64,000 nt of DNA from Anaerofustis stercorihominis (GCF_005844425.1 NZ_SPHL01000001.1:1-64000), one strand, 5' to 3'; positions 5,370 to 26,866 are shown, counted from the first letter of the stretch. Notes: generated from the letters alone by a model not told the origin. Numbers and translations: made by a program.

Positions 5370-6820
5370 TTTTCTATACATTCTAAATCATAAATACTTG
5401 GAGAATAAATAATATTTCCCATATAATCAAATCTTGAACCGTGACATGGACAGTCCCATGTTTTTTCATCAGGATTCCACGAAAGTTCGCAGTTTAAATG
5501 AGGACATTTGCTTGGAACTATATAACAGTTTCCTTCTTCGTCTTTATATACTCCTACTTTTTCTCCTTTATATTCTACTATTCCTCCATGACCTAAAGGA
5601 AGAGCTTGTAAGGTAGTATCCGGAATATTTAAAAATTCTTTTCCTATTCCTTTTATTGAATAAGGACCTTCTTTAATTATAGATTTTTTTATTCCTTTTG
5701 TATCAAATCTTTCGGGAGAAAATATACTGTCTTTATAATCAAACCCTTTAAGTATCATATCACTTATTATATTTGCAGCAACCATTGAAGATGTCATACC
5801 CCATTTATTAAATCCGGTAATTACATAAATATCTTTAAATGCTTTTGAAAATAAACCTATATAAGGTACTTTGTCAATTGTCATACAATCTTCACTTGCA
5901 TAATGCCCTATTTCTTCAAAGCCTGGATATAATTTTTTTATTTCTTCTCTTAGATTTTGATATTTTTCTCCTTTTTTGTTTTCCCCGCTTCTGTGTTTTT
6001 CTCCTCCAAACAATAATATATCGTCGTAACCTCTAAAAGAGTATCCTTTTTCATCCACATTTAAATATATATCTTTTAATTTTTTTGTATTTTTTAAAAT
6101 TAAAAAGTATGAAAGTTCTTGGTGCATTCTTAAAAAATAATATCCCGGAACATTTAAAAAAGGAAAAGAACATGCAAATATTATTTTATTTGCTTTTATT
6201 TTGTATCCGCTGTCTGTAAAAAGAGTTTTTCTTTTAGCTTTTACTTCTTCTATAAAAGTATTTTCGTATATTGTAAGGTCTTTTAATATGTGTTTTATAA
6301 ATTTAAATGGATTGAATTTTCCTTGATTTTTATATTTTATTGCTCCTTTGAATTTTAAAGGAAGAGAGCTTTCTTCTATATACTCGCAGTCAATATCGCA
6401 TTTTAAAAGAGCATTATATTCTTTTATTAATTTGTTTTCATCTTCTTTTGTATATAAATAAGCATTGCATTTTTCAAAATCGCATTCTATATTTTCTTCT
6501 TTTATTATATTCTCATATTCTTCTATTGCTTTTTTATTTAAATATGCATATTCTCTTGCTTTTTCAGTGCCAAAGTTGCTTATTAGTTCTTCATATATAA
6601 GTGAATGCGCAAGAGTAATTTTTCCCGTTGTATAAGCCGTAGTTTTTTGGCATATTCTGTCTTTTTCAAAAATAACTGCTTTTATTCCTTGTTTTTTTAA
6701 CTTATAAGCAGTAAGAATTCCTGATATTCCTCCCCCTATTATTGCAACATCTACATTTATGTTTTTATTTAATTCTTCATACATCGGTAAGTTAACGGTG
6801 TTTTCCCATAATGAATTCAT
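5351..6820 (-). CDS. FAD-dependent oxidoreductase with C-terminal Rieske domain
   Basis: 489 aa. The N-terminus is a DadA-like FAD enzyme: dinucleotide fold VAIIGGGISGILTAYKLKKQ at residues 26-45, YTTGKITLAH near 65, and the FAD-contact region FNKWGMTSSMVAANIISDMI near 340. The C-terminal ~95 residues are a Rieske [2Fe-2S] domain with CPHLNC and CPCHGSRFD, giving the full Cys-His/Cys-His ligand set. This fusion resembles glycine/sarcosine-oxidase-like proteins of unknown substrate in Firmicutes. The start follows an AGAGG site. It is monocistronic, converging on tag. Confidence 0.85.
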   Translation of the reverse strand: MNSLWENTVNLPMYEELNKNINVDVAIIGGGISGILTAYKLKKQGIKAVIFEKDRICQKTTAYTTGKITLAHSLIYEELISNFGTEKAREYAYLNKKAIEEYENIIKEENIECDFEKCNAYLYTKEDENKLIKEYNALLKCDIDCEYIEESSLPLKFKGAIKYKNQGKFNPFKFIKHILKDLTIYENTFIEEVKAKRKTLFTDSGYKIKANKIIFACSFPFLNVPGYYFLRMHQELSYFLILKNTKKLKDIYLNVDEKGYSFRGYDDILLFGGEKHRSGENKKGEKYQNLREEIKKLYPGFEEIGHYASEDCMTIDKVPYIGLFSKAFKDIYVITGFNKWGMTSSMVAANIISDMILKGFDYKDSIFSPERFDTKGIKKSIIKEGPYSIKGIGKEFLNIPDTTLQALPLGHGGIVEYKGEKVGVYKDEEGNCYIVPSKCPHLNCELSWNPDEKTWDCPCHGSRFDYMGNIIYSPSIYDLECIEKKVKKE

Positions 6821-7031
6821 AATAATACCTCTAAATCTATTTTTTATATATTATTGACAATTATAGGAAATATATAAGGTCGAAAAATAAAAAATAAGAA
6901 AAGCTGTTTTACAATTTAAGATTTATAATAAAATAATGAAAAATTTATATATAAAATTTTAATTATATATACAAAAACATATTAAAAATTAATATAATAT
7001 AATAACCCAATAAATATCGAAAGGATTTAAA

Positions 7032-7784
7032 ATGCAGGAAGAAAAACTTGTTTCATATATGTTGGATTTGGGGGAAATGCTTTTGACTTCTGGAGCTGAA
7101 GTTAGTAGGGTAGAGGATACTTTAAACAGAATAGGAAAAGCTTATTTATTACAAAAAGTAGATATTTTTACAATAACTTCTACTATTATTCTGACTGTTA
7201 AATTTTCAGATAGTAATATAATTACTCAAACAAGAAGAATAAAAAAATATGAAACAAACCTTGAGCAAGTTGAATATGTAAATCAGTTATCAAGAGATAT
7301 ATGTGTAAAAACATTAAGCATTAATGATTTAAAAAAAGAAATAGATAAAATAAGGAATACTAATAAATACAATAAAAAACTTATATTTCTTTCTTATGTT
7401 TTTGTCTCAGGCGCTTTTTCAGTATTTTTCGGTGGAAGTTTAATGGATAGTATTGCTTCCATGATAACCGGAGGGGTAATGTATTTTACGGTAAATGCAT
7501 TAAATAAACTTAATATAAATAATTTTGTAACCAGCCTTCTTTCTTCACTAATAACCGCTCTTTGTGCTGTTGTTTTAAACAGTATAGGTATAGGTGAAAA
7601 TATAGATAAGATTATTATAGGAAATATTATGCTTCTTATTCCCGGTCTTACTCTTACATCTTCATTAAGAGATATGATAAACGGGGATATTATTTCCGGT
7701 CTTCTTGGAGTTTTGGAATCAATTTTAAAGGCAATAGCTATTGCAATGGGTTTTGCTTTTATATTAATTCCTATAGGAGGTTAA
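7032..7784 (+). CDS. Threonine/serine exporter ThrE family, N-terminal component
   Basis: 250 aa, first half of a split ThrE transporter. The soluble N-terminal part has the family motif MLLTSGAEVSRVEDTLNRIG (residues 17-36) and a TIILTV strand; five hydrophobic segments follow from residue 118 on. In actinobacterial ThrE the two parts are one protein; here the second part is the next gene, one base away. Together they would export threonine, serine or small organic acids by a proton-driven route. The start is supported by GAAAGG at 7019-7024. Confidence 0.85.
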   Translation: MQEEKLVSYMLDLGEMLLTSGAEVSRVEDTLNRIGKAYLLQKVDIFTITSTIILTVKFSDSNIITQTRRIKKYETNLEQVEYVNQLSRDICVKTLSINDLKKEIDKIRNTNKYNKKLIFLSYVFVSGAFSVFFGGSLMDSIASMITGGVMYFTVNALNKLNINNFVTSLLSSLITALCAVVLNSIGIGENIDKIIIGNIMLLIPGLTLTSSLRDMINGDIISGLLGVLESILKAIAIAMGFAFILIPIGG

Positions 7785-7785
7785 A

Positions 7786-8232
7786 ATGTTACAAGGTATT
7801 ATACAGATAATTATGGCGGTTATAGGTTCTCTTGGTTTTGCGATTTTATTTAACATAAAAAGAGATAAACTTTCTATTATAGGTATTGGTTCTGCCATAG
7901 GCTGGATTTGTTATTTGTTTTTCTTTAGTTTTAACGCAAATAAAGTTATAACTCTTTTTATAACAACAACCATACTCTCTTTATTTTCGGAAATTTTAGC
8001 AAGAAAAATAAAAACTCCCGTTATTGTTCTTTTGGTTCCAATACTTATACCTTTAATTCCCGGAGGAGATTTATACTATACTATGTATAATCTGGTAACG
8101 GGCAATATGGATAAATTTATATATTATTTTTCTCTTGTAATGAAAGAAGCTGCGGCTATATCTTTTGGAATAATCATTATTACGTCAATAATGCAGATAT
8201 TTACAAAATTTCAACGATATAAATTAAAATAA
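7786..8232 (+). CDS. Threonine/serine exporter ThrE family, C-terminal component
   Basis: 148-aa integral membrane protein with four or five hydrophobic segments and the ThrE_2 motif PILIPLIPGGDLYYTMYN near residue 86. An AGGAGG site overlaps the end of the preceding gene, one base separates stop and start, and the two must work together. It ends at a strong terminator. Confidence 0.85.
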   Translation: MLQGIIQIIMAVIGSLGFAILFNIKRDKLSIIGIGSAIGWICYLFFFSFNANKVITLFITTTILSLFSEILARKIKTPVIVLLVPILIPLIPGGDLYYTMYNLVTGNMDKFIYYFSLVMKEAAAISFGIIIITSIMQIFTKFQRYKLK

Positions 8233-8260
8233 AAAATCATGCTTATGCATGATTTTTTTA
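8231..8260. terminator. Bidirectional terminator
   Basis: Stem AAAAAATCATGC / GCATGATTTTTT with loop TTAT between the ThrE pair and the MATE gene, which converge. Confidence 0.85.
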
Positions 8261-9598
8261 TATTTGTCTTGGTATTTTTTTTGTTTTAAATATTAAAATC
8301 AACGTTATAATAAAAGTCGTTATTTCAGCAAAAGGAACAGCCATCCACATTCCGTTTAAATCAAAGAATAAAGGAAGAATTTTTAAAAACAGTATTAAAA
8401 GTATAAAGGATCTAAGAGATGTTATAACCGCTGAGTATTGACCTTTTGCATAGGAAGTAAGTCTTACTGCCGTAAAAATACTAAGTCCCGAGAAAAAGTA
8501 TCCTATGGAATATATTCTCATTCCCATTACACCTAAGTTGTATACATTTGTTCCTTTTGTTGCAAAAAATGATACTGCCAAAGGAGCAAATATAAAAGAT
8601 ATTATATATAAAACACTTGGTATAATGCTAAAAAATCTATATGAATATTTTTCCAGTTTAATAAGTACGTCTTTATTTTTATTTCCATAATTATAACCAA
8701 GAAGCGGAGATATACCCATTGAATATCCGGTATAAATACCAAGGAAAATAAATTGTACGTACATTATTATAGAAACAGCAGCAACACCGTCATCTCCTGC
8801 ATATGTAAGAGCTGTTTTATTAAAAACAACAGTTGTAATTGCTATTGCAAGCTGATTTATAAATTCAGAAGAACCATTTATAATGCAAGGAGGTAGAAAG
8901 TTTAATTTTATTTTTTCTATTTTAAATTTTATATTATTACTATATTTTATAAAATAAATTATTCCCAAAATCATTGAAAGGATAAGTCCAAGTATTGTTG
9001 CTATTCCTGCCCCAAAAATTCCAAGTGACATTTTACCTACAAATATATAATCGAGAATAATATTTAAAACACCTCCCGATGCCGAAACTATAAAACTTAT
9101 TTTTGGGTTTCCGTCAATTCTTATAAAATAAACAAAAATTTCTTTAAGCATAATGGCTATTGTTCCAAACAGCCAAATTTTTATATATATCTTACAGTAA
9201 TCTAACGTTATACTTGTTGCACCGAGAAAAACTAATATATCCGATAAATAAAGAAGTATTACCCAGGAAATAATAATTCCTATTATTAAGCTTGAAACAA
9301 TACAAAATTGAAACATTTGATTTGCTTTTGTTTTGTCGTTTTTTCCAAGATATATAGAAGAAAGAGAACTTCCTCCTACCGCAAACATCATTGCAATTCC
9401 GGTTAATAAATTAACTATTGGATATACTATGTTTATTGCAGCAAGTGCATTTGTTCCTACATATTGTGAAACGTATATACCGTCTACTATTGTATATAAA
9501 GTAGTAAATAAAGCAGTAAGATATGTTGGTATTATAAATTTTAAAACCTTATAGAAATTTATATTTTTTATATCCTTAAACATTAAAATATTTTTCAT
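8258..9598 (-). CDS. MATE family multidrug efflux transporter
   Basis: 446 aa from the chosen ATG at 9598, which has AGGTGG 6 bases upstream; a longer frame to 9634 would run through the promoter and is rejected. Twelve hydrophobic segments in two similar halves, starting FIIPTYLTALFTTLYTIVDGIYVSQYVG, the MATE pattern near the first helix. Predicted Na+ or H+ driven export of drugs or metabolites across the cytoplasmic membrane. It faces a MerR regulator across a promoter with the long spacer that MerR proteins act on, so inducible expression is likely. Confidence 0.88.
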   Translation of the reverse strand: MKNILMFKDIKNINFYKVLKFIIPTYLTALFTTLYTIVDGIYVSQYVGTNALAAINIVYPIVNLLTGIAMMFAVGGSSLSSIYLGKNDKTKANQMFQFCIVSSLIIGIIISWVILLYLSDILVFLGATSITLDYCKIYIKIWLFGTIAIMLKEIFVYFIRIDGNPKISFIVSASGGVLNIILDYIFVGKMSLGIFGAGIATILGLILSMILGIIYFIKYSNNIKFKIEKIKLNFLPPCIINGSSEFINQLAIAITTVVFNKTALTYAGDDGVAAVSIIMYVQFIFLGIYTGYSMGISPLLGYNYGNKNKDVLIKLEKYSYRFFSIIPSVLYIISFIFAPLAVSFFATKGTNVYNLGVMGMRIYSIGYFFSGLSIFTAVRLTSYAKGQYSAVITSLRSFILLILFLKILPLFFDLNGMWMAVPFAEITTFIITLILIFKTKKIPRQI

Positions 9599-9616
9599 TT
9601 TTCCACCTCGAAGTAA

Positions 9617-9647
9617 ATTATAAAGTTTAAACATAGTTTAAGGTCAA
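9617..9647 (-). promoter_or_regulatory. MerR-type promoter of the MATE gene, 19-bp spacer with inverted repeat
   Basis: On the minus strand, TTGACC (9642-9647), 19 bp, TATAAT (9617-9622). The spacer contains the inverted repeat TTAAAC-N3-GTTTAA at 9627-9641. A 19-bp spacer with a centred dyad is the hallmark of MerR-activated promoters, and a MerR gene starts 45 bases away on the other strand. Confidence 0.75.
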
Positions 9648-9691
9648 TGGTTTTTATGATAAAATATATTAAAACTTTTAGGAGAATAAAA

Positions 9692-10441
9692 ATGAAAGAT
9701 GTTTTTTCAATAGGAGATATATCTAAATTTTTTAATATTCCAACTTCAACACTTAGATTTTGGGAAAAGAAGGGGTTATTGTCTCCAAGAAAAGAAGATA
9801 ATAATTACAGGGAATATTCCCTTCCTGATTTAATGAAAATATCCGATATTGTTTTTTATAAAAATTTGGGAATTCCTTTAAAAGATATTTTAAATTTAAA
9901 AAATAAAAATATTATAGAACAAGAGTTTTTTTGCAGTGAACATTTAAAAGAACTTGAAAGTCAAAAAGCATTGATTAATAGACAAATACAAAGATTAAAA
10001 CAACATCAAAAAGCTTTAAATATAATAAATGAACTTAAGGATAAGGATTATATAATTGCTGATATAGATACTGAATGTATTGTATCCTTTGAACTTACAC
10101 AAAAAGAAAAAATAAAAATGTATATAAAAAATCCATATTTATATTCCAGAGTTCAACATTCAAATGCTACCGATAAAGAACAAAGGGGAATAACCGTAAT
10201 AAAGCCGAAAAATAATAATGATATTATATGGCAGAAAAATAACGATAAATATGCCGTTTGTTTGATGAAAGAAGAAGTAGTAAAAGATTATCCAAATAAC
10301 CTTAATAGTCTTTTATCAAAAGTACAGAAAAAATACGAAACAGGGTATATTATAAGCAGATTTTTAACTTCTGCAAGGGAAGAAAATAAAATATATGATT
10401 TTTATAAAACTTATATTGAAATAAAAAAAGAGATTGATTAA
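9692..10441 (+). CDS. MerR family transcriptional activator
   Basis: 249 aa; the start at 9692 follows AGGAG 8 bases upstream. The N-terminal MerR helix-turn-helix reads FSIGDISKFFNIPTSTLRFW then EKKGLLSPRKEDNNYREYS (residues 4-45), followed by a coiled-coil dimerisation helix near 75-115. The C-terminal ~130 residues resemble GyrI/BmrR-like effector domains that bind hydrophobic drugs. It is divergent from a MATE pump whose promoter has the 19-bp MerR spacer, so it most likely activates that pump on sensing a toxic compound. Whether it also controls itself is not clear. Confidence 0.85.
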   Translation: MKDVFSIGDISKFFNIPTSTLRFWEKKGLLSPRKEDNNYREYSLPDLMKISDIVFYKNLGIPLKDILNLKNKNIIEQEFFCSEHLKELESQKALINRQIQRLKQHQKALNIINELKDKDYIIADIDTECIVSFELTQKEKIKMYIKNPYLYSRVQHSNATDKEQRGITVIKPKNNNDIIWQKNNDKYAVCLMKEEVVKDYPNNLNSLLSKVQKKYETGYIISRFLTSAREENKIYDFYKTYIEIKKEID

Positions 10442-13434: not shown

Positions 13435-14301
13435 TAATATATCATTTATAGCAGTTTTTATGTCTTGTTTTAATAATATTGCTCTATTTTGTATTTGTAA
13501 TGGAATATTATCATCTTGGTTATTAATTGAACAATAAAATGAATTTTTATTGTTAAAGGTCATTTGCCAAAACGGATATTTTATAATTGATGGTGTATTG
13601 TATCCAACACCGAGTTCTAAAAATAAAATTTTTTTATCTTTATTTTTATTTAGAAAATTTTCATATCTTTTATATGCTTTATTCCAACCTTCATCTTCAA
13701 CAAAAGTATCATCTTGTCTTAAATTCATTGTTAAAGGTTTATTACAGTATGGACATTTGGGAATTAAATATGAAGGTATTTTCATATCTTTCTGCTCTTT
13801 AACCATTTTTATTACTTGCTCTTTATTGTCAAATGTTTCATTATGACAAGGTGTAGAGCATTGAAACAAACCATAATCACCTTGTGTATAAAATAGTCTG
13901 GTTTTATCAATTCCCGCTTTTTGAAATAAATGGTCTACATTTGTTGTAATCACAAAATAATCTTTATCTTTTAAGATTTTTAAAAGATTACTATACGTTT
14001 CATTATCATTATCTTTATATCTATTAATAAATATATATCTGCTCCAAAAAGCCCAGTATTCTTCTAGTGTATCAAATGGATAAAAGCCGCCTGAGTACAT
14101 ATCCTGTATGCCGTATTTTTTATGAAAATCAGAAAAATATTTAAAAAATCTTTCTTTTGAATAAGTAAAACCTGCTGATGAAGAAAGTCCTGCTCCTGCT
14201 CCTACCAGTATAATATCAAAATTATTTATTTTTTCTTTTACAATTTTAATTAAATCATAGTAGTTTTTTGTATATTTCATAGTCTTTTGATTTGAAAACA
14301 T
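13432..14301 (-). CDS. SirTM-type (class M) sirtuin, predicted protein ADP-ribosyltransferase
   Basis: 289 aa from ATG at 14301, with GAGGTG 7 bases upstream; a TTG one codon earlier is possible. NAD-binding start GAGAGLSSSAGF at 34-45. The sirtuin asparagine is in TTNVDH (N121), but the catalytic His of deacetylating sirtuins is replaced by Gln in YTQGDYG (Q140), as reported for SirTM enzymes that ADP-ribosylate instead of deacetylate. Zinc cysteines C148, C152, C183, C186. The start lies inside the end of the macrodomain gene, so the pair is translationally coupled. The known target, lipoylated GcvH-L, is not encoded nearby. Confidence 0.85.
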   Translation of the reverse strand: MFSNQKTMKYTKNYYDLIKIVKEKINNFDIILVGAGAGLSSSAGFTYSKERFFKYFSDFHKKYGIQDMYSGGFYPFDTLEEYWAFWSRYIFINRYKDNDNETYSNLLKILKDKDYFVITTNVDHLFQKAGIDKTRLFYTQGDYGLFQCSTPCHNETFDNKEQVIKMVKEQKDMKIPSYLIPKCPYCNKPLTMNLRQDDTFVEDEGWNKAYKRYENFLNKNKDKKILFLELGVGYNTPSIIKYPFWQMTFNNKNSFYCSINNQDDNIPLQIQNRAILLKQDIKTAINDIL

Positions 14302-15025
14302 CAAATATCACCTCAATTGTTGATTTTGTTTCATCTAAATATTTAATAACTGTATCAACGGCAATCTTAGCTGCTATATCATTTGGAAAATGAAATTCTC
14401 CTGTTGATATACAACAAAATGCAATAGATTTTAATTTATATTTGTCAGCAAGTTTTAGACATGAAGTGTAACATGATTTAAGAGTTTCAATGTCACTATT
14501 TTTAAGTATATTATCTATATAAGGTCCAACCGTATGTATTATATATTTACATGGTAAATTATATGCTTTTGTTATTTTTGCTTTTCCTGTCGGTTCTTCG
14601 CTTTGTTGTATATTCATGATTTTACTGCATTCTAGTCTTAATTGAATTCCTGCTTTTGAGTGAATGGTATTATCTATGCATTTATGACATGGTATAAAAC
14701 ATCCAAGAAGTGAAGAATTGGCTGCATTTACTATTGCGTCAACTTCTAGTTTAGTTATATCTTCTTTTATTAAATATATATTTTTCTTTAAAGGTTTTAA
14801 ATTTGTTATATTAATTATTTCTTGTTTTTTTAATTCTTCATTTAGATATTCATCTTGAATTTTTAAAAATTCTTTTGCTATATTTTTTGCAGGACGAATA
14901 TTCATTAGAGAGCGAAGTAGGATTTTTTGTTCATCTTCATATCTTGGTATTTTAATATTTTTATAATCTTCTTTTTCGTTTAATAAATAGTTAATTAAAT
15001 ATTTTCTTCTATCATTTTGATTCAT
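14255..15025 (-). CDS. Zinc-containing macrodomain ADP-ribosyl hydrolase
   Basis: 256 aa from ATG at 15025, which has a strong AAAGGAGG site; longer frames lack one. Macrodomain core from about residue 82: EDITKLEVDAIVNAANSS with the catalytic-loop asparagines at 100 and 103, then LGCFIPCHKCIDNTIHSKAG, the Cys/His/Cys zinc loop (C109, H114, C116) of SirTM-linked macrodomains, and IIHTVGPY near 180. It removes ADP-ribose, reversing the SirTM reaction. The N-terminal ~80 residues are the helical lead typical of this subgroup. It is first in the two-gene operon and overlaps its partner by about 47 bases. Confidence 0.88.
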   Translation of the reverse strand: MNQNDRRKYLINYLLNEKEDYKNIKIPRYEDEQKILLRSLMNIRPAKNIAKEFLKIQDEYLNEELKKQEIINITNLKPLKKNIYLIKEDITKLEVDAIVNAANSSLLGCFIPCHKCIDNTIHSKAGIQLRLECSKIMNIQQSEEPTGKAKITKAYNLPCKYIIHTVGPYIDNILKNSDIETLKSCYTSCLKLADKYKLKSIAFCCISTGEFHFPNDIAAKIAVDTVIKYLDETKSTIEVIFDVFKSKDYEIYKKLL

Positions 15026-15345
15026 TTTTTCCTCCTTTATATATAATAAATAATTAATATAAAAAAATAAAGTAGGCACTTTTTTGTAATATGGTTACTT
15101 TTTAGAAACTAATATCATTATTTAAATAAAAAAAAAGTTTAAAAACTTGCTTGATATTGCTATTTTTTAATTTTTTGTTTTTTCTAAGATATTTTAATTT
15201 TCGATTTTATCATTAAATATAATAATTAATTTCTCTTATTCGTTTTGCTTTAATAACTTACAATGACTTCATAAAATTTTCTATATCTAATCATATTAAG
15301 TTATATATAATGTCGTTATTATACCTGTTATTATTCAGTTTTATA
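15026..15345. other. AT-rich intergenic stretch with possible decayed anchor
   Basis: No gene seen. On the minus strand at about 15297-15341, just past the SGNH hydrolase stop, a frame reads IITGIITTLYIT, reminiscent of the hydrophobic end of the surface anchor at 34.7 kb; this is weak. The remainder is low-complexity AT sequence and presumably holds the macrodomain promoter. Confidence 0.35.
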
Positions 15346-17186: not shown

Positions 17187-20100
17187 ATGAATAAATTTTC
17201 TAAGAGGTTAATTGCATTATTGGTTACATTTTCTTTGGTACTATCCATGATGGCGAACTTTAATAACTCTGTTGTGTTCGCTTCTTCTATGGAAAATAAT
17301 AAAATCGAAACAGACATAGATAATAATAATCAGACATCAAATAATGGTAATGTGTCTATTGTGAAGAATTCTGATAATTCTTCTAACGTAAATATTAATG
17401 CTTATTCTGATACAAAATATTCTTCTGAAATAACGAATGTAGAGGTTGATATTTCTAATAAAACCATGATCATAGAGTGGTATGGTCAGGCAAGTAAAGT
17501 TGTTATTGAGTTTTATGATGAAGAATTTGACGGTGAAAATGATGCGGCTTCTCATTTGATTTCAAGGAAGACACAAGATGTTACATCTTCTGCGACAGAG
17601 ATTGTAAAGACTAATGTTTCATATGAAAATGACAGTTCTATTCCTATGTATTTTATATTAAAAATTTATATGCTTGATGAAAAAGGGAACGTTGCTTCTT
17701 ATGATTTTCTTTCTAATTCATATACTAAAGATATTTATGAACTTAGGAACATGACCGCAGAGGATTATAAAGACGAGGGAGATCGTTTAATTGATGTTGA
17801 TAAGGTTGCAAGCGATGATGAAGAACTAAAAGATAATGATACTTTTATGGTTCTTAAGGATGATGTTATTTTAATAAAAGAAGAAAGTGCTTCTGAAGAA
17901 GGAACTGATAGTTTACAGGTTAATATTGTTCCTACAAATGATGAAAACTCTCTTATGTTTTCCCTTGGAAATGTTGATTCTAAACTTGCTGATGAGTTAA
18001 ATAATATAGAGGGAAAAACTCCTGTTTTTGTAATTGATAAATCATCTGAATCTTCTGGTGTAAAAACTAATTTTTATATGCTTAACATAAATAGTGCGCA
18101 AATGGATGATGCAAACGGTGCAATTATTTATGGGGAAAATTTGAATGCAAACACAGATGAGGGAGAAGTCGAATATTCTAATTTACAAACTATATTTGAA
18201 GCTTATAAAGGACATACTGAAAAAGAGTATTCAACTTCCTTTTCTTTACCTCTTGGTGCTTATGGAACAATAAGTGCAAAACCACAAGGGAAAATAACCT
18301 TTGAATTATGTATTGATTTTGGTAAAAGTAATATATGCGCAATTTCCTTTGAAAATGACTTGCATTGCAAAGATACTGAAGTTGACATAGATTCACCTTC
18401 TGTGTTCTTTGATATTCCTGTTCTTCAAGTTCCAATAGGCATGCCTGGAGTAATAGAATTTGATATTGGCATTAATGCCAGAATTTCAGGAAGTGCAACA
18501 GGCGGTGTAAGATTTGATTATGATTTAAATTCAGGTTTTGAACTTGGAATGACAAATAAGGGAAAAACATTTTTAAATAATAAGTCTAAGGGAAGTGATA
18601 CTAAGTTCCAAGGATTTAGTCTTACAGGAAGTGTATTTACGGGGTTTGCTTTTGGTGTTTCTTTTGAAATAATAAAACTTATTTCGTTAAGCGCAGATCT
18701 TGCATCCGGCTTTGATATTTCAGGAACTTTAAATTCAGGGCACTACTTTGAAGAAGAAAAAATATATCATGCATGTAAAGATTTTGAATGTATTGACGGA
18801 GAGGTAAGTTTAAAACTTCTGGGATATAGCTTTTCAATTAATTTGCTCATGTTCAGTAGAGGAATTTCGGGAGATATTCTTCCGCCTCAATTGATATGCA
18901 ATTTATATTACTCCGGCACATACAAAACATCAGGTCAAACGGAGTGTCCTCATAAAGGATATAAGCTTAATGTTCATGTAGTAGATCAAAATGGTAATAG
19001 TTTATCCGATGTAGATGTTTCATATCCTAATGATGATAAGCAGTTTGAATCTCTAAAAGAAGGAAAGACCGATGCTGATGGTAATGCAGTTATATATGTT
19101 CCTGAAGGAACTTATGATATTACTGCGGATTTATATAAAAGTAATTTAAACCATCATTTTTCTTCGGTTGCTAGTTTTGTTGAACAAGGATTTGATGAAG
19201 AAAACGGGGATTTATATAATTCAGAATTTGAAATTACAATTGACATGAGTTATAATACCGTTTCTTTCCATGATTTAAATCAAGAAGGGAAAGCAAGCAA
19301 TATGCCCGGCAATGTTTATACATATCCAGAAAGTACCTCTACGGTAATTCCTGATAATACGCCTACAAAAGACGGTCATATTTTCCTTGGATGGGATACT
19401 AATGAAAGTTCAAAAAACGTAGTATATAAACCGGGAGATAAAATAGAGGCTACGAATGATATAAGGCTTTATGCTGTATGGGCATATGATTCATATAATG
19501 TTAAATTTGATTCCAACAAACCAAAAAATGCTTCAACTGAAATGTCAGGAAGTATGTCAGACATGACTTTAAAATACAATGAAAGTAAAAATTTAAGTGT
19601 AAATGCTTATTCACTTCCAGGATGGAGCTTTAAAGGCTGGAATACAAAAGCGGATGGAAGCGGAGATAGTTTTACCGATAAGCAGGAAGTAAAAAATTTA
19701 TATGGAGCAAATGTTAAAAATATTACGTTATATGCACAGTGGGAGCCAAAGACTTATACGGTAACCTTTGATGATAGAGAAGGAAATACAAAAACTCAAG
19801 AAATGGTATTTGATACTGCTGAAAAATTAGATCCTTGCACCTTTACGAAAACAGATAATATATTTACATATTGGTCAACCCTTGCTCTTGGAAGTAAGTA
19901 TTTAGATGAATCTTCTGTAGTAAATTTATGTAATCTTGATAGTAACGGAAATCCTACGGGTATAACGTTATATCCAAACTGGGTTATGTCAGACAGTGCA
20001 GTAATTTTAATTACGGATAATGGAAAATCGGTGGATACAAATAATCCAGAAAATGATATTACTTTAATAAATTATAATACCGGTGAAGAGTTTAACGGTG

Positions 20101-21566
20101 TATTTGAACGTATGGAAAGCGGAGTTTATGCAATATCTGATACTGCTGCTATACCTGAGGGAACCTACAAAGTTAGATTCAGCGGTGCATTGGAAGGATA
20201 TGATACAGATGATAGAACAATAGAAGTTGATACTTTAGGTGGAGCATATAACTTTAATTATTGTACTGTAAGCATATCTTCAGACGAGCATGCAACCTCA
20301 TGGATAGAATCTAAAGGAAATACAACGAAAGAAAAAATCTTAGTTGGAACGCAGATTGAAATAGGAACAGATGTAGATGAAGGATACAGCTTTGAAAGTT
20401 ATACTGCTGTTGGAAGTACTCCAGGATTTGAAAAGGATGATCCTACAAAGGCTAATCAAACTATAACCGTTACAGGTGAAGTTCAAATTGATGCTCATCC
20501 TTTGGCAAATTTATATACAATCCAGTTTATTCCTAACTTTGAAAATGGCGGACCATCAATAACTCAGGATATGGTATACGATGAACCTCAAAATCTATTT
20601 GAAAATCAATTCGTAAGATATGGATATGAATTTGCAGGCTGGACTGAGGGCGAAAAATGGAGCGGTGAAGAAAAATTATATGCCGATATGGAAAGTGTTA
20701 AGAATTTAACATCTGAAAATGGCGGTAATGTTAAATTATACGCACAGTGGAATCCTGTTCAAACATTTATTAAATTTGATGCTAACGGCGGTGACGGTTC
20801 AATGCTTGATCAGACCACTTATTATGAAAATAATACTAAACTTGTTCCATGTGAATTTACAAAAGAATATTATGACTTTGTCGGTTGGAATACAAAAGCC
20901 GACGGAAGCGGAACTTCATATGCTGATGAAACAGAATTTATTTCTAATAATGGAGAAAAAAATTCTACTATTACATTATATGCACAGTGGAAATTAACGG
21001 ACTATAACATAGAATATGATTTAGGCGGAGGTACCCTTTCAAAGGCAAATCCAGTTACTTATACATATGAAACAGATTCTTTCAAACTTAATAATCCTGT
21101 TAAAATAGGATATAACTTCATAGGCTGGACCGGTTCTAACGGAGATACTCCTGAAAAGGATGTTACGGTTAAGAAAGGTTCAAGCGGAGATTTGAAATAC
21201 ACTGCAAACTGGGAACCAATAACTCTTACTATAACCTTTGACCCTAACGGAGGAACCTGGGCTGACGGTTCAAAAGGTAAGAAAGTAATAACTGCCGAAT
21301 ATGGAAGTACAATTACAATACCTGATGCTCCTAAGAAAAATGGTGCAACTTTTGAATACTTTGAAGGTTCTAATAACAAATACAGTTCAGGTCAAAAAAT
21401 TAAAGTAACATCTAATCTTGAATTTAAGGCGCACTGGTCTACAAACAGTAGCAGTGCAGCAACGGGGGATAATAACGATATTTCAGGTTTAATCTTCCTA
21501 ATGACTATTTCTGTTATCGGTATAGGACTAAGTATAAGAAATATTAAAAGACAAAGAAAAATCTAA
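17187..21566 (+). CDS. Large cell-surface protein with InlB B-type repeats
   Basis: 1459 aa. Signal peptide about 1-33 (LLVTFSLVLSMMANFNNSVVFAS). Residues 35-590 form a large unassigned region; a carboxypeptidase-regulatory-like beta domain (VVDQNGNSLSDVDVSYP, EGTYDITADL) lies near 592-655. From about 690 to 1418 there are seven InlB B-type (Listeria-Bacteroides) repeats, each with a YTVTFD-like strand, a GYxFxGW motif and a closing LYAQW. The C-terminus is AATGDNNDIS, a hydrophobic segment and IKRQRKI, a sortase-like anchor with a degenerate motif. Probable adhesin. AGGAGG ribosome site, monocistronic. Confidence 0.85.
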   Translation: MNKFSKRLIALLVTFSLVLSMMANFNNSVVFASSMENNKIETDIDNNNQTSNNGNVSIVKNSDNSSNVNINAYSDTKYSSEITNVEVDISNKTMIIEWYGQASKVVIEFYDEEFDGENDAASHLISRKTQDVTSSATEIVKTNVSYENDSSIPMYFILKIYMLDEKGNVASYDFLSNSYTKDIYELRNMTAEDYKDEGDRLIDVDKVASDDEELKDNDTFMVLKDDVILIKEESASEEGTDSLQVNIVPTNDENSLMFSLGNVDSKLADELNNIEGKTPVFVIDKSSESSGVKTNFYMLNINSAQMDDANGAIIYGENLNANTDEGEVEYSNLQTIFEAYKGHTEKEYSTSFSLPLGAYGTISAKPQGKITFELCIDFGKSNICAISFENDLHCKDTEVDIDSPSVFFDIPVLQVPIGMPGVIEFDIGINARISGSATGGVRFDYDLNSGFELGMTNKGKTFLNNKSKGSDTKFQGFSLTGSVFTGFAFGVSFEIIKLISLSADLASGFDISGTLNSGHYFEEEKIYHACKDFECIDGEVSLKLLGYSFSINLLMFSRGISGDILPPQLICNLYYSGTYKTSGQTECPHKGYKLNVHVVDQNGNSLSDVDVSYPNDDKQFESLKEGKTDADGNAVIYVPEGTYDITADLYKSNLNHHFSSVASFVEQGFDEENGDLYNSEFEITIDMSYNTVSFHDLNQEGKASNMPGNVYTYPESTSTVIPDNTPTKDGHIFLGWDTNESSKNVVYKPGDKIEATNDIRLYAVWAYDSYNVKFDSNKPKNASTEMSGSMSDMTLKYNESKNLSVNAYSLPGWSFKGWNTKADGSGDSFTDKQEVKNLYGANVKNITLYAQWEPKTYTVTFDDREGNTKTQEMVFDTAEKLDPCTFTKTDNIFTYWSTLALGSKYLDESSVVNLCNLDSNGNPTGITLYPNWVMSDSAVILITDNGKSVDTNNPENDITLINYNTGEEFNGVFERMESGVYAISDTAAIPEGTYKVRFSGALEGYDTDDRTIEVDTLGGAYNFNYCTVSISSDEHATSWIESKGNTTKEKILVGTQIEIGTDVDEGYSFESYTAVGSTPGFEKDDPTKANQTITVTGEVQIDAHPLANLYTIQFIPNFENGGPSITQDMVYDEPQNLFENQFVRYGYEFAGWTEGEKWSGEEKLYADMESVKNLTSENGGNVKLYAQWNPVQTFIKFDANGGDGSMLDQTTYYENNTKLVPCEFTKEYYDFVGWNTKADGSGTSYADETEFISNNGEKNSTITLYAQWKLTDYNIEYDLGGGTLSKANPVTYTYETDSFKLNNPVKIGYNFIGWTGSNGDTPEKDVTVKKGSSGDLKYTANWEPITLTITFDPNGGTWADGSKGKKVITAEYGSTITIPDAPKKNGATFEYFEGSNNKYSSGQKIKVTSNLEFKAHWSTNSSSAATGDNNDISGLIFLMTISVIGIGLSIRNIKRQRKI

Positions 21567-21567
21567 T

Positions 21568-21600
21568 AAAAAACAGAACCTTTAGTGGTTCTGTTTTTTA
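21568..21600 (+). terminator. Terminator of the large surface protein gene
   Basis: Stem AAAAAACAGAACC / GGTTCTGTTTTTT with a six-base loop. Confidence 0.85.
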
Positions 21601-21814: not shown

Positions 21815-21856
21815 TAAAAAGCCATAAAGCTATATTTTATAGTCTTTATGGCTTAT
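21815..21856 (-). terminator. Terminator for the defence operon
   Basis: Long stem AGCCATAAAGCTATA / TATAG-CTTTATGGCT with one bulge; read on the minus strand it is followed by a T-rich run, placing it about 155 bases after the TrlF-like stop. Confidence 0.65.
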
Positions 21857-22007: not shown

Positions 22008-24785
22008 TCAGATATGATACTTATTCTTCCTTAATTCAAACGCTGACTCACCACCCTCTAAAATATCACAGATATGTTGTTGTATTCCTCGAGAATTTAA
22101 AATACCTTGTTCAATAGTTCCGTCATCAGTATACACAGGCATATTATTCTCTATAGCACCTGACCTGTATTCAAATCTAAATTTTTTATTTGGAACATTA
22201 CTTCCTTGCTGATTAGCTACAATTACTTCTTCAGCATCTGCTCCAAGAACTACATTTGCATTATGTGTAACAATTATAATTTGTCTATCTTTTTTTTTCT
22301 TTTTGATGAATGGAATTAAGTCTTTGAAAACAGATCGATTGTCCAGATCATCCTCTGGTTGATCTATAAGAATAGGACATTTACTGTCTGCTAAGTCTAT
22401 TAACAACTTTAACAAAACCAGAGCTTTTTTACCGGGGGACATAACATCAATGGTATCATTGTCCATTTGAACATTATACTTAATCTCAAACCAATCATCG
22501 CAAATATCTCTAATTACACTTTCCTTATTGTTGCCTTTTTTAGGTTGTAGCTGATCATTAAGAATTTTACAAATAATATCTTTTAAAAAGTCCTGCGAAT
22601 ACTGAGCTTCAGTAAACTCATCGATTGATATCGTTTCTTTAAAGATTATAGAGCGATTATCTAAAAGTTTTGAAATTTTATCCAAAAATGCTTCTTTTTT
22701 GAAAGGCACACATACAGAAAACTCCAAATCGCTACTTCTGAACTCAGGCTTCGAATTAACTGTTTCAGCATACTCTGTATGGAATTTTTTGAATTTTTCT
22801 ATACACAAAGAAATATCATTAATATATTTATTTTCTTTTTCAACAAGACTTTTTTCTTTTTCCTCTAACATTTTCAGCTTTTTTAACTTATCATTTTCTT
22901 GTTGAATATTGTTTGATATTTCTGTAATCACTTTATTATCTTGAATTTTAGATTTCAAGCTATCTCGTATTTCAAATAGTTCGTTTTGTCGATTTTCTTT
23001 TTCATTTAATCCAGTAGATATGTTGGTTAGTATAGTGTGTTTACTGCTTTCCCAAACAGCATCTGCAGCTTCTATTGCTTTGTTCATTGTTATATCTATA
23101 AGATTTTTAGTATCACTTGAAAAAGAATAATTGAGTTTTCTTTTTTCCACCAATGAATCTATTTCTTCTAAAAAAGCAAGGTCGTTTTTCAATAATAAGA
23201 TTTGTTCTTTGAGTGTACTTATTTCAAAAACAGTTTTTTCATATAAATCCAAATCATATTTAGATAAATCAAGTTCATTTGACAATATATCTTTTCTAGA
23301 AGATAGTTTTTCTATTTGAGCCTTGATAGCTTCTTGATCACCTATTTCTTTTTTGTCCTCTTTTACGCTATTTATTTCTTTGTGATTTTCAATTAATCCA
23401 AGAATACTCATATTCAATGTAGACTTATAGTCTTTTATTGACTGCAACATAGAAGTATAAGTTGACTTAGCTTTAGCATCAATCCAAACAATATCTTGAA
23501 TTATTCTATCGATTTCTGTAGTGGATTCTTTTGCGTCACTTAATCTATTTAAGTAGGTTTGAGGAATATATACAATCTTGCGAGGTTCGTCTTTTTTTCC
23601 ATCTTTCCAAGTTACAAAAATGTTTTGAATATTCTTATTAATAGAAGAGGACTTCTCTTCTTTTTCCTTAACCTGCAATGGGTCTATTGCGTTAGCTAAA
23701 TTATGTAATAGTATGGATTTACCTGTTGATTTGCCACCAATGATACAGGTTAAATTTTCATTAAAATTGATAGGTGCGTCCTGAAAATCTTTATCTATGA
23801 ATTCTACTTTATCGATAACATAATACTCAGCTTTATAGTCAGGTAATGTCTGAGAAATTTTAACTCGCTCTTCAGGTTCATAAAGGATCTGCTTTAGACC
23901 ATTAAATGTTGGATCTGCTTTTATCCAGCAATATTTTTGCTGGTCTGGTTCAAATATTTCTTCATTTTTGTGAGCATCACTTCCGTGTACGCAAGGTTTT
24001 AGTGAACCACACTCTTTTACTACTGCTTCAACAGAGCAATTGGATTTCTTTCCTAAAAAGTATTTAATGTCAGAAGGAGTAGCTGAAAAAATACCATCGA
24101 CAAATTTATATATTGATTGTCTAAACGCTTTTAGTTGACTATCTCCTTGAAAACCATCTAAGTAATCCGAATGGTTTACTGCACCACTTACGCCATCTGT
24201 GGAACTATTAGAAACAAAAATAATAGTGTTATCACGCAGTTCTCTGTCATTCAAAAAGATTTCCTGTATCTTGTCAAAAGATGGAACAAATTGTTCTATT
24301 CCTTTTTTATATGCTGCTGAGTCTTCTAAAGTTGAATCTATGGTTTTTCCTAATCTAATTAGTTCAGAGTGAGATGCCGAAAAAGTAGTTGAACTATATC
24401 TGAAATTTATCTTTGAGAAAAACCTGCTATCAATAGAGCTTATAATATCAGGGTTAAATATAAAATGGATATTAATAGGGGAATCATTGGCTATTGGCTG
24501 AATTCTCATTTCAACATTTGGCAATACAAGTTTAACACTTTTGGGTAATTTGTTATCTGCTATAACTTTCTTATAATTATCAATAGACAAATAATCTGTT
24601 ATCGCTATAACTGCTACTGCTTTTAGTGGATCATCTCCACTACCAATATATGTACTAATATCTTGATAGTATTTTTCCCATTTTTCTTCAGATGAAGACC
24701 CAGTAAAATTATCATTTTTTTGAGTATCTGGTGTGTGAATATGTAATTCCCATCTTCGCCATTCAGATCCTTTTGTAGATTCCAT
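22008..24785 (-). CDS. TrlF-type AAA/ABC ATPase with N-terminal PHP domain
   Basis: 925 aa. The N-terminus is a PHP-like metallohydrolase: RRWELHIHTPD at residues 10-20 and VHGSDAHK near 265. Then an ABC/SMC-type ATPase: Walker A IIGGKSTGKSILLH near 347, a long coiled-coil middle (about 470-690), signature SPGKKALVLLKLL near 783, Walker B ILIDQPEDDLDN near 803 and the switch histidine in IIVTHNANV. This matches proteins annotated as TrlF family AAA-like ATPases, of unproven biochemistry and often near defence genes. It follows the restriction enzyme by 39 bases on the same strand, so it is probably co-expressed with it. Confidence 0.78.
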   Translation of the reverse strand: MESTKGSEWRRWELHIHTPDTQKNDNFTGSSSEEKWEKYYQDISTYIGSGDDPLKAVAVIAITDYLSIDNYKKVIADNKLPKSVKLVLPNVEMRIQPIANDSPINIHFIFNPDIISSIDSRFFSKINFRYSSTTFSASHSELIRLGKTIDSTLEDSAAYKKGIEQFVPSFDKIQEIFLNDRELRDNTIIFVSNSSTDGVSGAVNHSDYLDGFQGDSQLKAFRQSIYKFVDGIFSATPSDIKYFLGKKSNCSVEAVVKECGSLKPCVHGSDAHKNEEIFEPDQQKYCWIKADPTFNGLKQILYEPEERVKISQTLPDYKAEYYVIDKVEFIDKDFQDAPINFNENLTCIIGGKSTGKSILLHNLANAIDPLQVKEKEEKSSSINKNIQNIFVTWKDGKKDEPRKIVYIPQTYLNRLSDAKESTTEIDRIIQDIVWIDAKAKSTYTSMLQSIKDYKSTLNMSILGLIENHKEINSVKEDKKEIGDQEAIKAQIEKLSSRKDILSNELDLSKYDLDLYEKTVFEISTLKEQILLLKNDLAFLEEIDSLVEKRKLNYSFSSDTKNLIDITMNKAIEAADAVWESSKHTILTNISTGLNEKENRQNELFEIRDSLKSKIQDNKVITEISNNIQQENDKLKKLKMLEEKEKSLVEKENKYINDISLCIEKFKKFHTEYAETVNSKPEFRSSDLEFSVCVPFKKEAFLDKISKLLDNRSIIFKETISIDEFTEAQYSQDFLKDIICKILNDQLQPKKGNNKESVIRDICDDWFEIKYNVQMDNDTIDVMSPGKKALVLLKLLIDLADSKCPILIDQPEDDLDNRSVFKDLIPFIKKKKKDRQIIIVTHNANVVLGADAEEVIVANQQGSNVPNKKFRFEYRSGAIENNMPVYTDDGTIEQGILNSRGIQQHICDILEGGESAFELRKNKYHI

Positions 24786-24824
24786 TCCTTTTGTCCTCTT
24801 TAAACAATCTTAAAATATTTTCTG

Positions 24825-25643
24825 TTATTTGGCATTAAATCCATTATAACTTCCAAATCCAAGCATATACGTAGCCATCGCAATCGCCAAATCTTCTGAT
24901 TCAACATTCTGTTCGCTCGCCAAAGCTCTCAGCTCGTCAATAACTGTATCGTGTGGCACAATTGTACCTTCTAACTCTTTAACTGCCTTTTCAATAACGG
25001 ATGGCAATACCATACACATCTGATAAAAAGCATCGTCCTGTCCTGTTACTAAGGCGTAGAATTGATCAAGACTTACCCTGCGGATAAGTTTATGACCAAC
25101 CTTTTTTTTATCAACTGTCGTTTCCCATTTGATATTCTGAGATCGATGTGCAATCGCTTCTACCAAAAAACAAGCACAGTCATCGTCATTTAACAACTGA
25201 TTTTGCATTTTGATAAAGGTTTTACCTGCTGAAGCAGAATTCATTGTATTATGTTTATTTTTCATTTCAACATAAACGGTATGTACATTTCCTGCGTCAG
25301 GAATAGGAATACCATCAGCATTTTCGTAAATTACATCCCAACCGCCTTCTTCGCCATTTGGCGGAACGTGACAATTTTTAATGTATTGGAAAATACGCTG
25401 ATGAAAATATCCAATATCGTTGTTGTTAGACTTGTCTCTTTGACGGAAAATTTCGTTACTTACAATTTCTTCCCAAGAAGATTGATATACTGTCTTGTCA
25501 AAAATTAACTTAATCGGATCAATGATATTTTTATTAAAGCGCTTTAAATCAAATGATTCAAGCTTTTCTCCGTATTTTTCAATCGTTGCTTTGACATGAT
25601 TTGAAAAATCTTCTTCGTTTATAAAAGTTAAATTCCACATCAT
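24825..25643 (-). CDS. Type II restriction endonuclease, Eco47II-like (predicted GGNCC specificity)
   Basis: 272 aa. The core reads FDKTVYQSSWEEIVSNEIFRQ, RDKSNNNDIGYFHQRIFQYI and WDVIY..VEMKNKHNTMNSASAGKT, with a PD-(D/E)xK style catalytic set: D in GGWDV near 100, then E and K in VEMKNK near 127. The pattern is that of the Eco47II/Sau96I family, whose members cut GGNCC. The start ATG overlaps the methyltransferase stop (ATGA). A second ATG directly follows. The specificity prediction comes from family resemblance only. Confidence 0.75.
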   Translation of the reverse strand: MMWNLTFINEEDFSNHVKATIEKYGEKLESFDLKRFNKNIIDPIKLIFDKTVYQSSWEEIVSNEIFRQRDKSNNNDIGYFHQRIFQYIKNCHVPPNGEEGGWDVIYENADGIPIPDAGNVHTVYVEMKNKHNTMNSASAGKTFIKMQNQLLNDDDCACFLVEAIAHRSQNIKWETTVDKKKVGHKLIRRVSLDQFYALVTGQDDAFYQMCMVLPSVIEKAVKELEGTIVPHDTVIDELRALASEQNVESEDLAIAMATYMLGFGSYNGFNAK

Positions 25644-26866
25644 AAACTCTCCAATGCTTCTCTTATTTTTACTGCAATTTCATACGCTAAATTAACTGGT
25701 ACAGCATTTCCAACTTGTTTGTATTGCTGTCCTACACTTCCACAGAATTGCCAATCATCAGGAAAACTCTGACATCTTGCATTTTCTCGTATTGTAAATG
25801 GACGAGGCTCCAATGGGTGACAACGGTCAGTCTGTTTTTGGCTTGGAGAAGTTAAAACAGTAAGTGAAGGTTCATCTAAACTTAATCTTCTTAAAATACC
25901 TGTTCTACCGCCTTCCATATACCAACAACTTTTCATATATTCTTTCGCAATATCTTCGGGAATATCTCTCCAATAACCGCCTGGGGGAACAAGCTCAAAT
26001 ATTTTGCGTTTATGATCGGAATATTGTGAGCCTTCACTTTGAGGACAATCTAAAAGAATATCTCTTAGTACTGGTTTATATTTATGAGGAGTAGGGAAAT
26101 GAAATTTAATTTTTGGAACTAAATCATTTCTAATTCCAATCGTAATTAAGCGTTCTCTTTTTTGAGCAACTCCGTAATCCCAAGCATTTAAGACTTGTTT
26201 TTGTATGGTATAACCTTCGCTTTCAAAAATGTCTGTAATTGTTTTATATGTGCGTCCTTTATCATGTGTCAACAAACCTCGCACATTTTCGAACAAAAAC
26301 ATTTTTGGTTGGAGTTGTTTCAAAAATTTTGCGTAATGATAAAATAATGTACCTCGTGCATCTTCCAATCCTAATCTCTTTCCAGCATAGGAAAATGCTT
26401 GACAAGGCGCACCACCTGATAATAAATCAAGCTCTCCTTTTTTTATGTTAAAATACTCTTCCAAATCTAAACAAGAAATGTTAGCAATATCATCATTGAT
26501 AACTCGCCAATTCGGACGATTGCATTTTAATGTATCTGACGCAGCTTTATCAAATTCTATTAAGCCGATTGTATCAAATCCAGCTTTCTCAATTCCTAAA
26601 GCAAGTCCACCAGCGCCTGCAAACAATTCAATAGTCATTGGCTTTTTCTCAACAACCTCTGTCGGCTCTTGAACAAACTCTACTACATCGCCAATATTAC
26701 AATTTAAAGCTGCACAGATTTTCTCTATACTTTCAAATGACACTGTTTCATTTTTGCCCATTCGAGCCATTACATTAAAGCTAATACCGGCAGCTTCTTT
26801 CAATTCAGTACGATTCATATTTTTGTCTATCAGTATCTTCCAAAGATTATTATAACAAACAGCCAC
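25640..26866 (-). CDS. DNA (cytosine-5) methyltransferase with N-terminal HTH regulator domain
   Basis: 408 aa, GTG start at 26866 with GGAGG 10 bases upstream. Residues 1-66 are a Cro/CI-type helix-turn-helix (LKEAAGISFNVMARMGKNET, then FESIEKICAALNCNIGDVVEF). From about 77 the m5C motifs follow in order: I IELFAGAGGLALG, IV GAPCQAFS with the catalytic Cys, VI FLFENVRG, VIII QKRERLITIGIR, and X QVGNAVPVNLAYEIA at the end. It protects host DNA from the overlapping endonuclease. The fused HTH makes it a likely autorepressor; a TATTGT-N7-ACAATA dyad precedes the gene. Confidence 0.9.
   Translation of the reverse strand: MAVCYNNLWKILIDKNMNRTELKEAAGISFNVMARMGKNETVSFESIEKICAALNCNIGDVVEFVQEPTEVVEKKPMTIELFAGAGGLALGIEKAGFDTIGLIEFDKAASDTLKCNRPNWRVINDDIANISCLDLEEYFNIKKGELDLLSGGAPCQAFSYAGKRLGLEDARGTLFYHYAKFLKQLQPKMFLFENVRGLLTHDKGRTYKTITDIFESEGYTIQKQVLNAWDYGVAQKRERLITIGIRNDLVPKIKFHFPTPHKYKPVLRDILLDCPQSEGSQYSDHKRKIFELVPPGGYWRDIPEDIAKEYMKSCWYMEGGRTGILRRLSLDEPSLTVLTSPSQKQTDRCHPLEPRPFTIRENARCQSFPDDWQFCGSVGQQYKQVGNAVPVNLAYEIAVKIREALESL

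Follow-up and report, generated by a model that had tools for sequence, protein, structure and literature searches.

A TrlF-family PHP/ABC ATPase encoded in an Eco47II-type restriction-modification operon: a proposed exchangeable second layer of defence against phage

Within the 64,000-nucleotide stretch of Anaerofustis stercorihominis DNA analysed here (the window), a type II restriction-modification (R-M) operon carries an attached gene for a TrlF-family protein. Our preferred reading, to which we give a probability of about one half, is that TrlF would serve as a modular, Ppl-like second-line effector, probably autonomous for the most part, that is co-expressed with modification-based defences and is not a subunit of the Eco47II system. 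To judge from the sequences, it seems to be an exchangeable back-up against phage and not a component of this particular enzyme. The reading draws on the operon layout, the domain build and ATPase motifs of the protein, its remodelled PHP site, its repeated linkage to modification systems, its switching of partners and its existence without any, all taken from sequence and comparison. The usual view of restriction-modification is of a device with two parts. If a mobile ATPase has become attached time and again to unrelated defences based on modification, it would amount to a second layer common to them, and the TrlF family, present in about 4% of the phylum's genomes and on more than 200 plasmid records, gains a concrete hypothesis. 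TrlF is already a named family, and what is new, as far as we found, is the partner switching across R-M and BREX systems together with the remodelled PHP site. Our literature search yielded no paper on the family, the open-access literature gave no published mechanism for it, and no description of R-M/BREX-wide partner switching or of the remodelled PHP site was found in a search that did not include Krishnan et al. 2020, the key comparative paper, which probably already describes ABC proteins of this sort.

The three open reading frames of the operon lie on the minus strand and are transcribed in the order methyltransferase, endonuclease, TrlF (Table 1). The first two genes overlap by 4 bp, the endonuclease stop and the TrlF start are separated by 39 bp, and a terminator scan of the window reported no minus-strand terminator-like site between the three genes. 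These coordinates agree with the preliminary description, which had placed the ATPase gene on the same strand, 39 bases after the endonuclease, as the third gene of an R-M operon. The same description spoke of an only terminator. A strong hairpin does follow TrlF, about 150 bp past its stop codon, but a second, bidirectional terminator is present at 21567-21600. A gene for a 1459-aa protein with Listeria-Bacteroides (InlB-type) repeats (17187-21566) is convergent to the TrlF gene. The R-M pair itself is ordinary. A PF09553 endonuclease adjoins a C5 methyltransferase, as in the tandem Eco47II/Sau96I-type pairs, and the pair is also present in other loci. The recognition sequence expected of an Eco47II-type system is GGWCC/GGNCC.

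Table 1 Features of the operon in the window and partner systems of TrlF relatives
Feature	Position in window, or locus	Strand	Evidence
C5 cytosine DNA methyltransferase with N-terminal Cro/C1-type HTH (HTH_26), 408 aa, GTG start	25640..26866	(-)	PF00145 3e-85; PF13443 1.5e-18; TIGR00675
Eco47II-family type II restriction endonuclease, 272 aa	24825..25643	(-)	RE_Eco47II PF09553 1.1e-89; PADLOC REase_II
TrlF-family PHP / coiled coil / ABC ATPase, 925 aa	22008..24785	(-)	NF045780 8e-163, 544 bits (cut-off 350); AlphaFold2 mean pLDDT 87.3
PHP domain, ~residues 9-311	23853..24761	(-)	Foldseek: RNase AM (7ug9, 9etk), phosphoesterase BAD_1165 (3o0f); 9etk profile match residues 12-143, E 1e-4
PHP HxH motif H15 + H17, kept	24735..24743	(-)	near-invariant
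PHP motif II D64-Y65, Tyr where TDH has His	24591..24596	(-)	near-uniform in subclade; aligned to RNase AM TDH
PHP ligand E92, kept	24510..24512	(-)	invariant
S192-N193 replacing PHP AH motif	24207..24212	(-)	subclade motif comparison
PHP last motif D270-A-H272, kept	23970..23978	(-)	conserved among relatives
Walker A GGKSTGKS, residues 350-357	23715..23738	(-)	G350, G355, K356 invariant
Coiled coil between ATPase lobes, ~residues 437-677	22755..23477	(-)	DSSP on model; profile matches to SMC, Rad50 coiled coils
ABC signature SPGKK, residues 783-787	22425..22439	(-)	S783, G785 invariant
Walker B ILIDQPEDDLD, residues 805-815	22341..22373	(-)	D808, Q809, P810, L814, D815 invariant
Intrinsic terminator hairpin with U-rich tail, operon end	21819..21854	(-)	fold -17.6 kcal/mol, z -7.2, 0/200 shuffles fold as well
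Type I R-M partners	L051, L072, L085, L076, L096, L099, L108		HMM matches
Type II partner, two Dam-type methyltransferases + endonuclease	L086, L088		HMM matches
Type II partner, C5-endonuclease-C5	L090		HMM matches
Type II partner, HNH + two C5	L102		HMM matches
Type II partner, methyltransferase + HNH	L094		HMM matches
IIG partner	L107		HMM matches
Type III partners	L101, L116		HMM matches
BREX partners	L055, L087, L063		HMM matches
Mza partner	L070		HMM matches

The family assignment of the third gene product rests on a full-length match to NF045780 (544.4 bits, profile positions 1-944 of 944), and the gene is present in a single copy in the genome. A Pfam profile search of the protein returned no match. 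In an AlphaFold2 model built from 50 relatives, the PHP domain is followed by an ABC ATPase split by the coiled coil, with the signature and Walker B in the C-lobe, the same order as in the family. A Foldseek search with the model matched the ATPase to SMC, MukB, JetC (Wadjet), LmuB (Lamassu), RecF, Rad50 and AriA (PARIS). TM-scores were low because the matching is part by part, and a profile search against PDB sequences agreed with the structure matches for both the ATPase and the PHP parts. In this confident model the ATPase is predicted to be of the SMC/Rad50/RecF type. Walker A, signature and Walker B are all intact and are near-invariant in relatives (50-56 members). The family and domain assignment of the preliminary description (TrlF, with PHP, long coiled coil and SMC-like ABC ATPase) was upheld.

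The PHP domain, which also matches the DNA polymerase III alpha chain in the structure search, presents a different picture. Its metal ligands HxH, D64, E92, H107, D270 and H272 are retained, but two histidines are replaced (TDH by TDY and AH by SN) in nearly the whole subclade of the window protein, which is mostly Clostridia (39-59% identity) and differs in this respect from the rest of the family. The exceptions are L107 and L091; the L106 reading frame lacks its N-terminus. Both L107 and L091 look chimaeric, with a PHP domain nearer the L115/L059 lineage (~40% versus 30%) and an ATPase nearer the window's subclade. In other TrlF lineages (L103, L108-L110) the HxH motif reads QxQ. The replaced ligands make the PHP chemistry uncertain and, taken with the QxQ lineages, mean that catalysis may be weak, altered or absent. 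With near-invariant ATPase motifs beside a variable PHP site, it is the ATPase that is conserved in the TrlF family, and the PHP chemistry varies. On sequence grounds, the PHP domain may cut, bind or do something else.

Ppl of E. coli (NF042955) also joins a PHP domain and an ABC-type NTPase in one chain. TrlF matches it weakly, however, mainly in the ATPase C-lobe and mainly outside the PHP domain; at 87.6 bits against a cut-off of 1000 it was rejected as a Ppl member, and Ppl is a single-gene system. The Spaf_1101 family AAA-like ATPase (NF045781) shares the architecture at only ~20% identity, and membership was rejected with a score below the cut-off; L150 of that family keeps TDH- and AH-type PHP motifs. 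Ppl is the nearest characterized protein by architecture, which favours an autonomous, stress- or end-triggered second-line effector. The E. coli enzyme is a PHP single-stranded DNA 3'-5' exonuclease that bound NTPs keep inactive until nucleotides run short and 3'-OH ends are present (PMC12904381). By analogy, an ATP-bound SMC/Rad50-like head dimer would keep the PHP domain of TrlF off, and a cue arising when restriction fails to stop a phage, such as free DNA ends, falling nucleotide levels or the two together, would free it to process nucleic-acid ends. Co-transcription would let TrlF travel and be expressed alongside the modification system, of any type, that provides the self mark of the host.

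The preliminary description had proposed that TrlF acts jointly with the R-M pair, and it called for a search for the same three-gene order in other genomes. That order was not found: none of the 17 other Eco47II loci (plasmids, IMG/VR contigs and one genome of the phylum, some with short flanks) has a TrlF gene nearby. One of these relatives (L214) is 85% identical and has the same HTH-fused methyltransferase, and TrlF is absent there. A conserved Eco47II-TrlF gene order was accordingly rejected, and the narrow claim of a specific bond fails on the very comparison by which it was to be judged. Eco47II occurs in only 2 of 399 genomes, which is so rare that genome-level co-occurrence statistics are uninformative.

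The partners of TrlF are instead diverse (Table 1). Close relatives are typically encoded downstream of the genes of type I, II, IIG or III R-M, BREX or Mza systems, with small gaps or overlaps, and other TrlF contexts lack R-M and contain SNF2/TIR, SbcCD, HipA or recombinase genes. The BREX locus L063 has the order BrxC-PglX-TrlF-Schlafen-PglZ-BrxL, in which an AlbA_2 protein (the Schlafen) sits with TrlF between PglX and PglZ. The TrlF tree pairs the window protein with the Mza-linked L070 as its sister (97% SH-aLRT), followed by the BREX-linked L055 and the IIG-linked L107; with Mza, BREX and IIG on neighbouring branches, partners switch over short distances. Two loci with closely related TrlF genes are colinear. 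Directly upstream of TrlF, L090 carries a 3.76-kb C5 M-R-M cassette (6254-10011) where L148 has 165 bp (9847-10011). Both loci keep an intact TrlF gene, so a partner can be acquired or lost cleanly, and the two loci offer a ready natural experiment with and without the R-M cassette. A bolder proposal, which we regard as possible though doubtful, is that TrlF couples to all of these systems through a consequence common to them, that the remodelled PHP site represents a new chemistry, and that the gene is handed on as a cassette.

This diversity bears on the suggestion that TrlF takes over the ends made by the endonuclease and breaks down the cleaved DNA of the phage in the manner of MRN/SbcCD-type nucleases. 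The position of TrlF as third operon gene, 39 bp past the endonuclease, its SMC/Rad50-like head, the resemblance of its PHP domain to the exonuclease RNase AM and the action of Ppl on 3'-OH ends (PMC12904381) are all in keeping with such a role. We nevertheless consider it unlikely, given the 17 other Eco47II loci without TrlF, the incomplete PHP metal site, and partners that include enzymes of differing cut types as well as BREX, which a review heads as restriction without cleavage (PMC12707154). The partners have self marking by methylation in common and differ in how they cut, if they do; this disfavours both a protein devoted to Eco47II ends and a role as subunit. Of the two possibilities raised by the preliminary description, handling of the ends made by this nuclease and a backup when restriction fails, the diverse partners and the occurrence of TrlF with and without an R-M cassette favour only the second, in the form of a general back-up effector.

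The broader linkage to modification systems was counted in the 25 close TrlF loci whose upstream sequence spans 4 kb or more. A DNA methyltransferase was encoded within 5 kb in 16/25 and in the same operon in 12/25 of these loci, which are not fully independent (L086 and L088, for example), and about a third of the close loci show no methyltransferase. The corresponding values were 7/98 and 0/98 for random genes of TrlF-bearing genomes and 1/26 and 1/26 for AbiEii loci (Fisher versus TrlF, 4e-6 and 3e-4). More distant TrlF genes are less linked (15/54 within 5 kb, 10/54 in the same operon). Neighbours of TrlF had served as seeds for the methyltransferase profiles; a motif-only recount was therefore performed, and it agreed (close TrlF 15/25, random genes 9/98, AbiEii 2/26). 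The statistical link expected by the preliminary description was thus recovered in its broad form: the general pairing of TrlF with R-M is real in these sequences, while the Eco47II pairing is not conserved. As NF045781 supplied only 3 loci, AbiEii, random genes and OLD-TOPRIM (OLD/PARIS-type) ATPases were used as controls in its place. OLD-TOPRIM ATPases gave 6/19 within 5 kb and 8/19 in the same operon; they are known R-M/BREX associates (PMC12839542) and therefore no neutral control. With comparable counts, TrlF resembles these ATPases; other proteins share its linkage, which would also fit a guard.

Such a guard is the main rival to a back-up effector. TrlF would watch the R-M or BREX enzyme, or phage blockers of it, and launch an abortive response when restriction is inhibited. 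PrrC (EcoprrI) and PARIS AriAB, established R-M guards (PMC12707154; PMC12839542), similarly place ABC ATPase modules in or near R-M or BREX loci; AriA came up in both the structure and the profile searches with TrlF, and TrlF is linked to a wide range of restriction systems about as often as the PARIS-type ATPases are. The effectors of PrrC and PARIS differ, however, being an anticodon nuclease in PrrC, which is tied to a type IC system, and a TOPRIM domain in PARIS, with no PHP domain in either. TrlF has the PHP plus ABC fold, and the Pfam search revealed no HEPN or TOPRIM toxin domain. TrlF also persists without R-M (L148 and Klebsiella plasmids), and its partners are structurally unrelated, meaning that direct protein contact would need to re-evolve at each switch. 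We judge a guard role rather improbable on balance, and a back-up effector of the Ppl kind remains our preferred reading.

The wider distribution of TrlF was assessed with a subclade profile search of genome contigs, which gave 202 candidates, of which 80 were kept; a single-sequence scan of the same kind of contigs found no TrlF relatives. Of the 216 plasmid records that carry TrlF, 143 are from Klebsiella and 167 are conjugative. Two Enterobacteriaceae plasmids were inspected (L153 and L154), and in both TrlF has no adjacent R-M genes. The subclade patterns found no relatives in viral contigs, and with a single distant, partial phage match TrlF was rejected as phage cargo.

The least probable account is that TrlF is an unrelated defence gene which came to lie beside the R-M genes when it entered a variable island behind guaA, with no functional link. 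DNA synteny with both congeners (G007 and G008) covers guaBA and ends exactly at the guaA 3' end (27604), leaving the operon in a variable region; a second TrlF locus (L074, 9305-10001) also follows guaB-guaA and is without R-M, and many TrlF genes stand alone. Against this account stand the same-strand operon layout seen in 12/25 close relatives versus 0/98 random genes and 1/26 AbiEii loci, and the typical placement of TrlF behind the genes of its partner system, at short distances or overlapping them. Defence genes seem to insert repeatedly at guaA. Near the island, a gene at 14255-15079 encodes a Macro-domain protein (protein-ADP-ribose hydrolase, NF003163).
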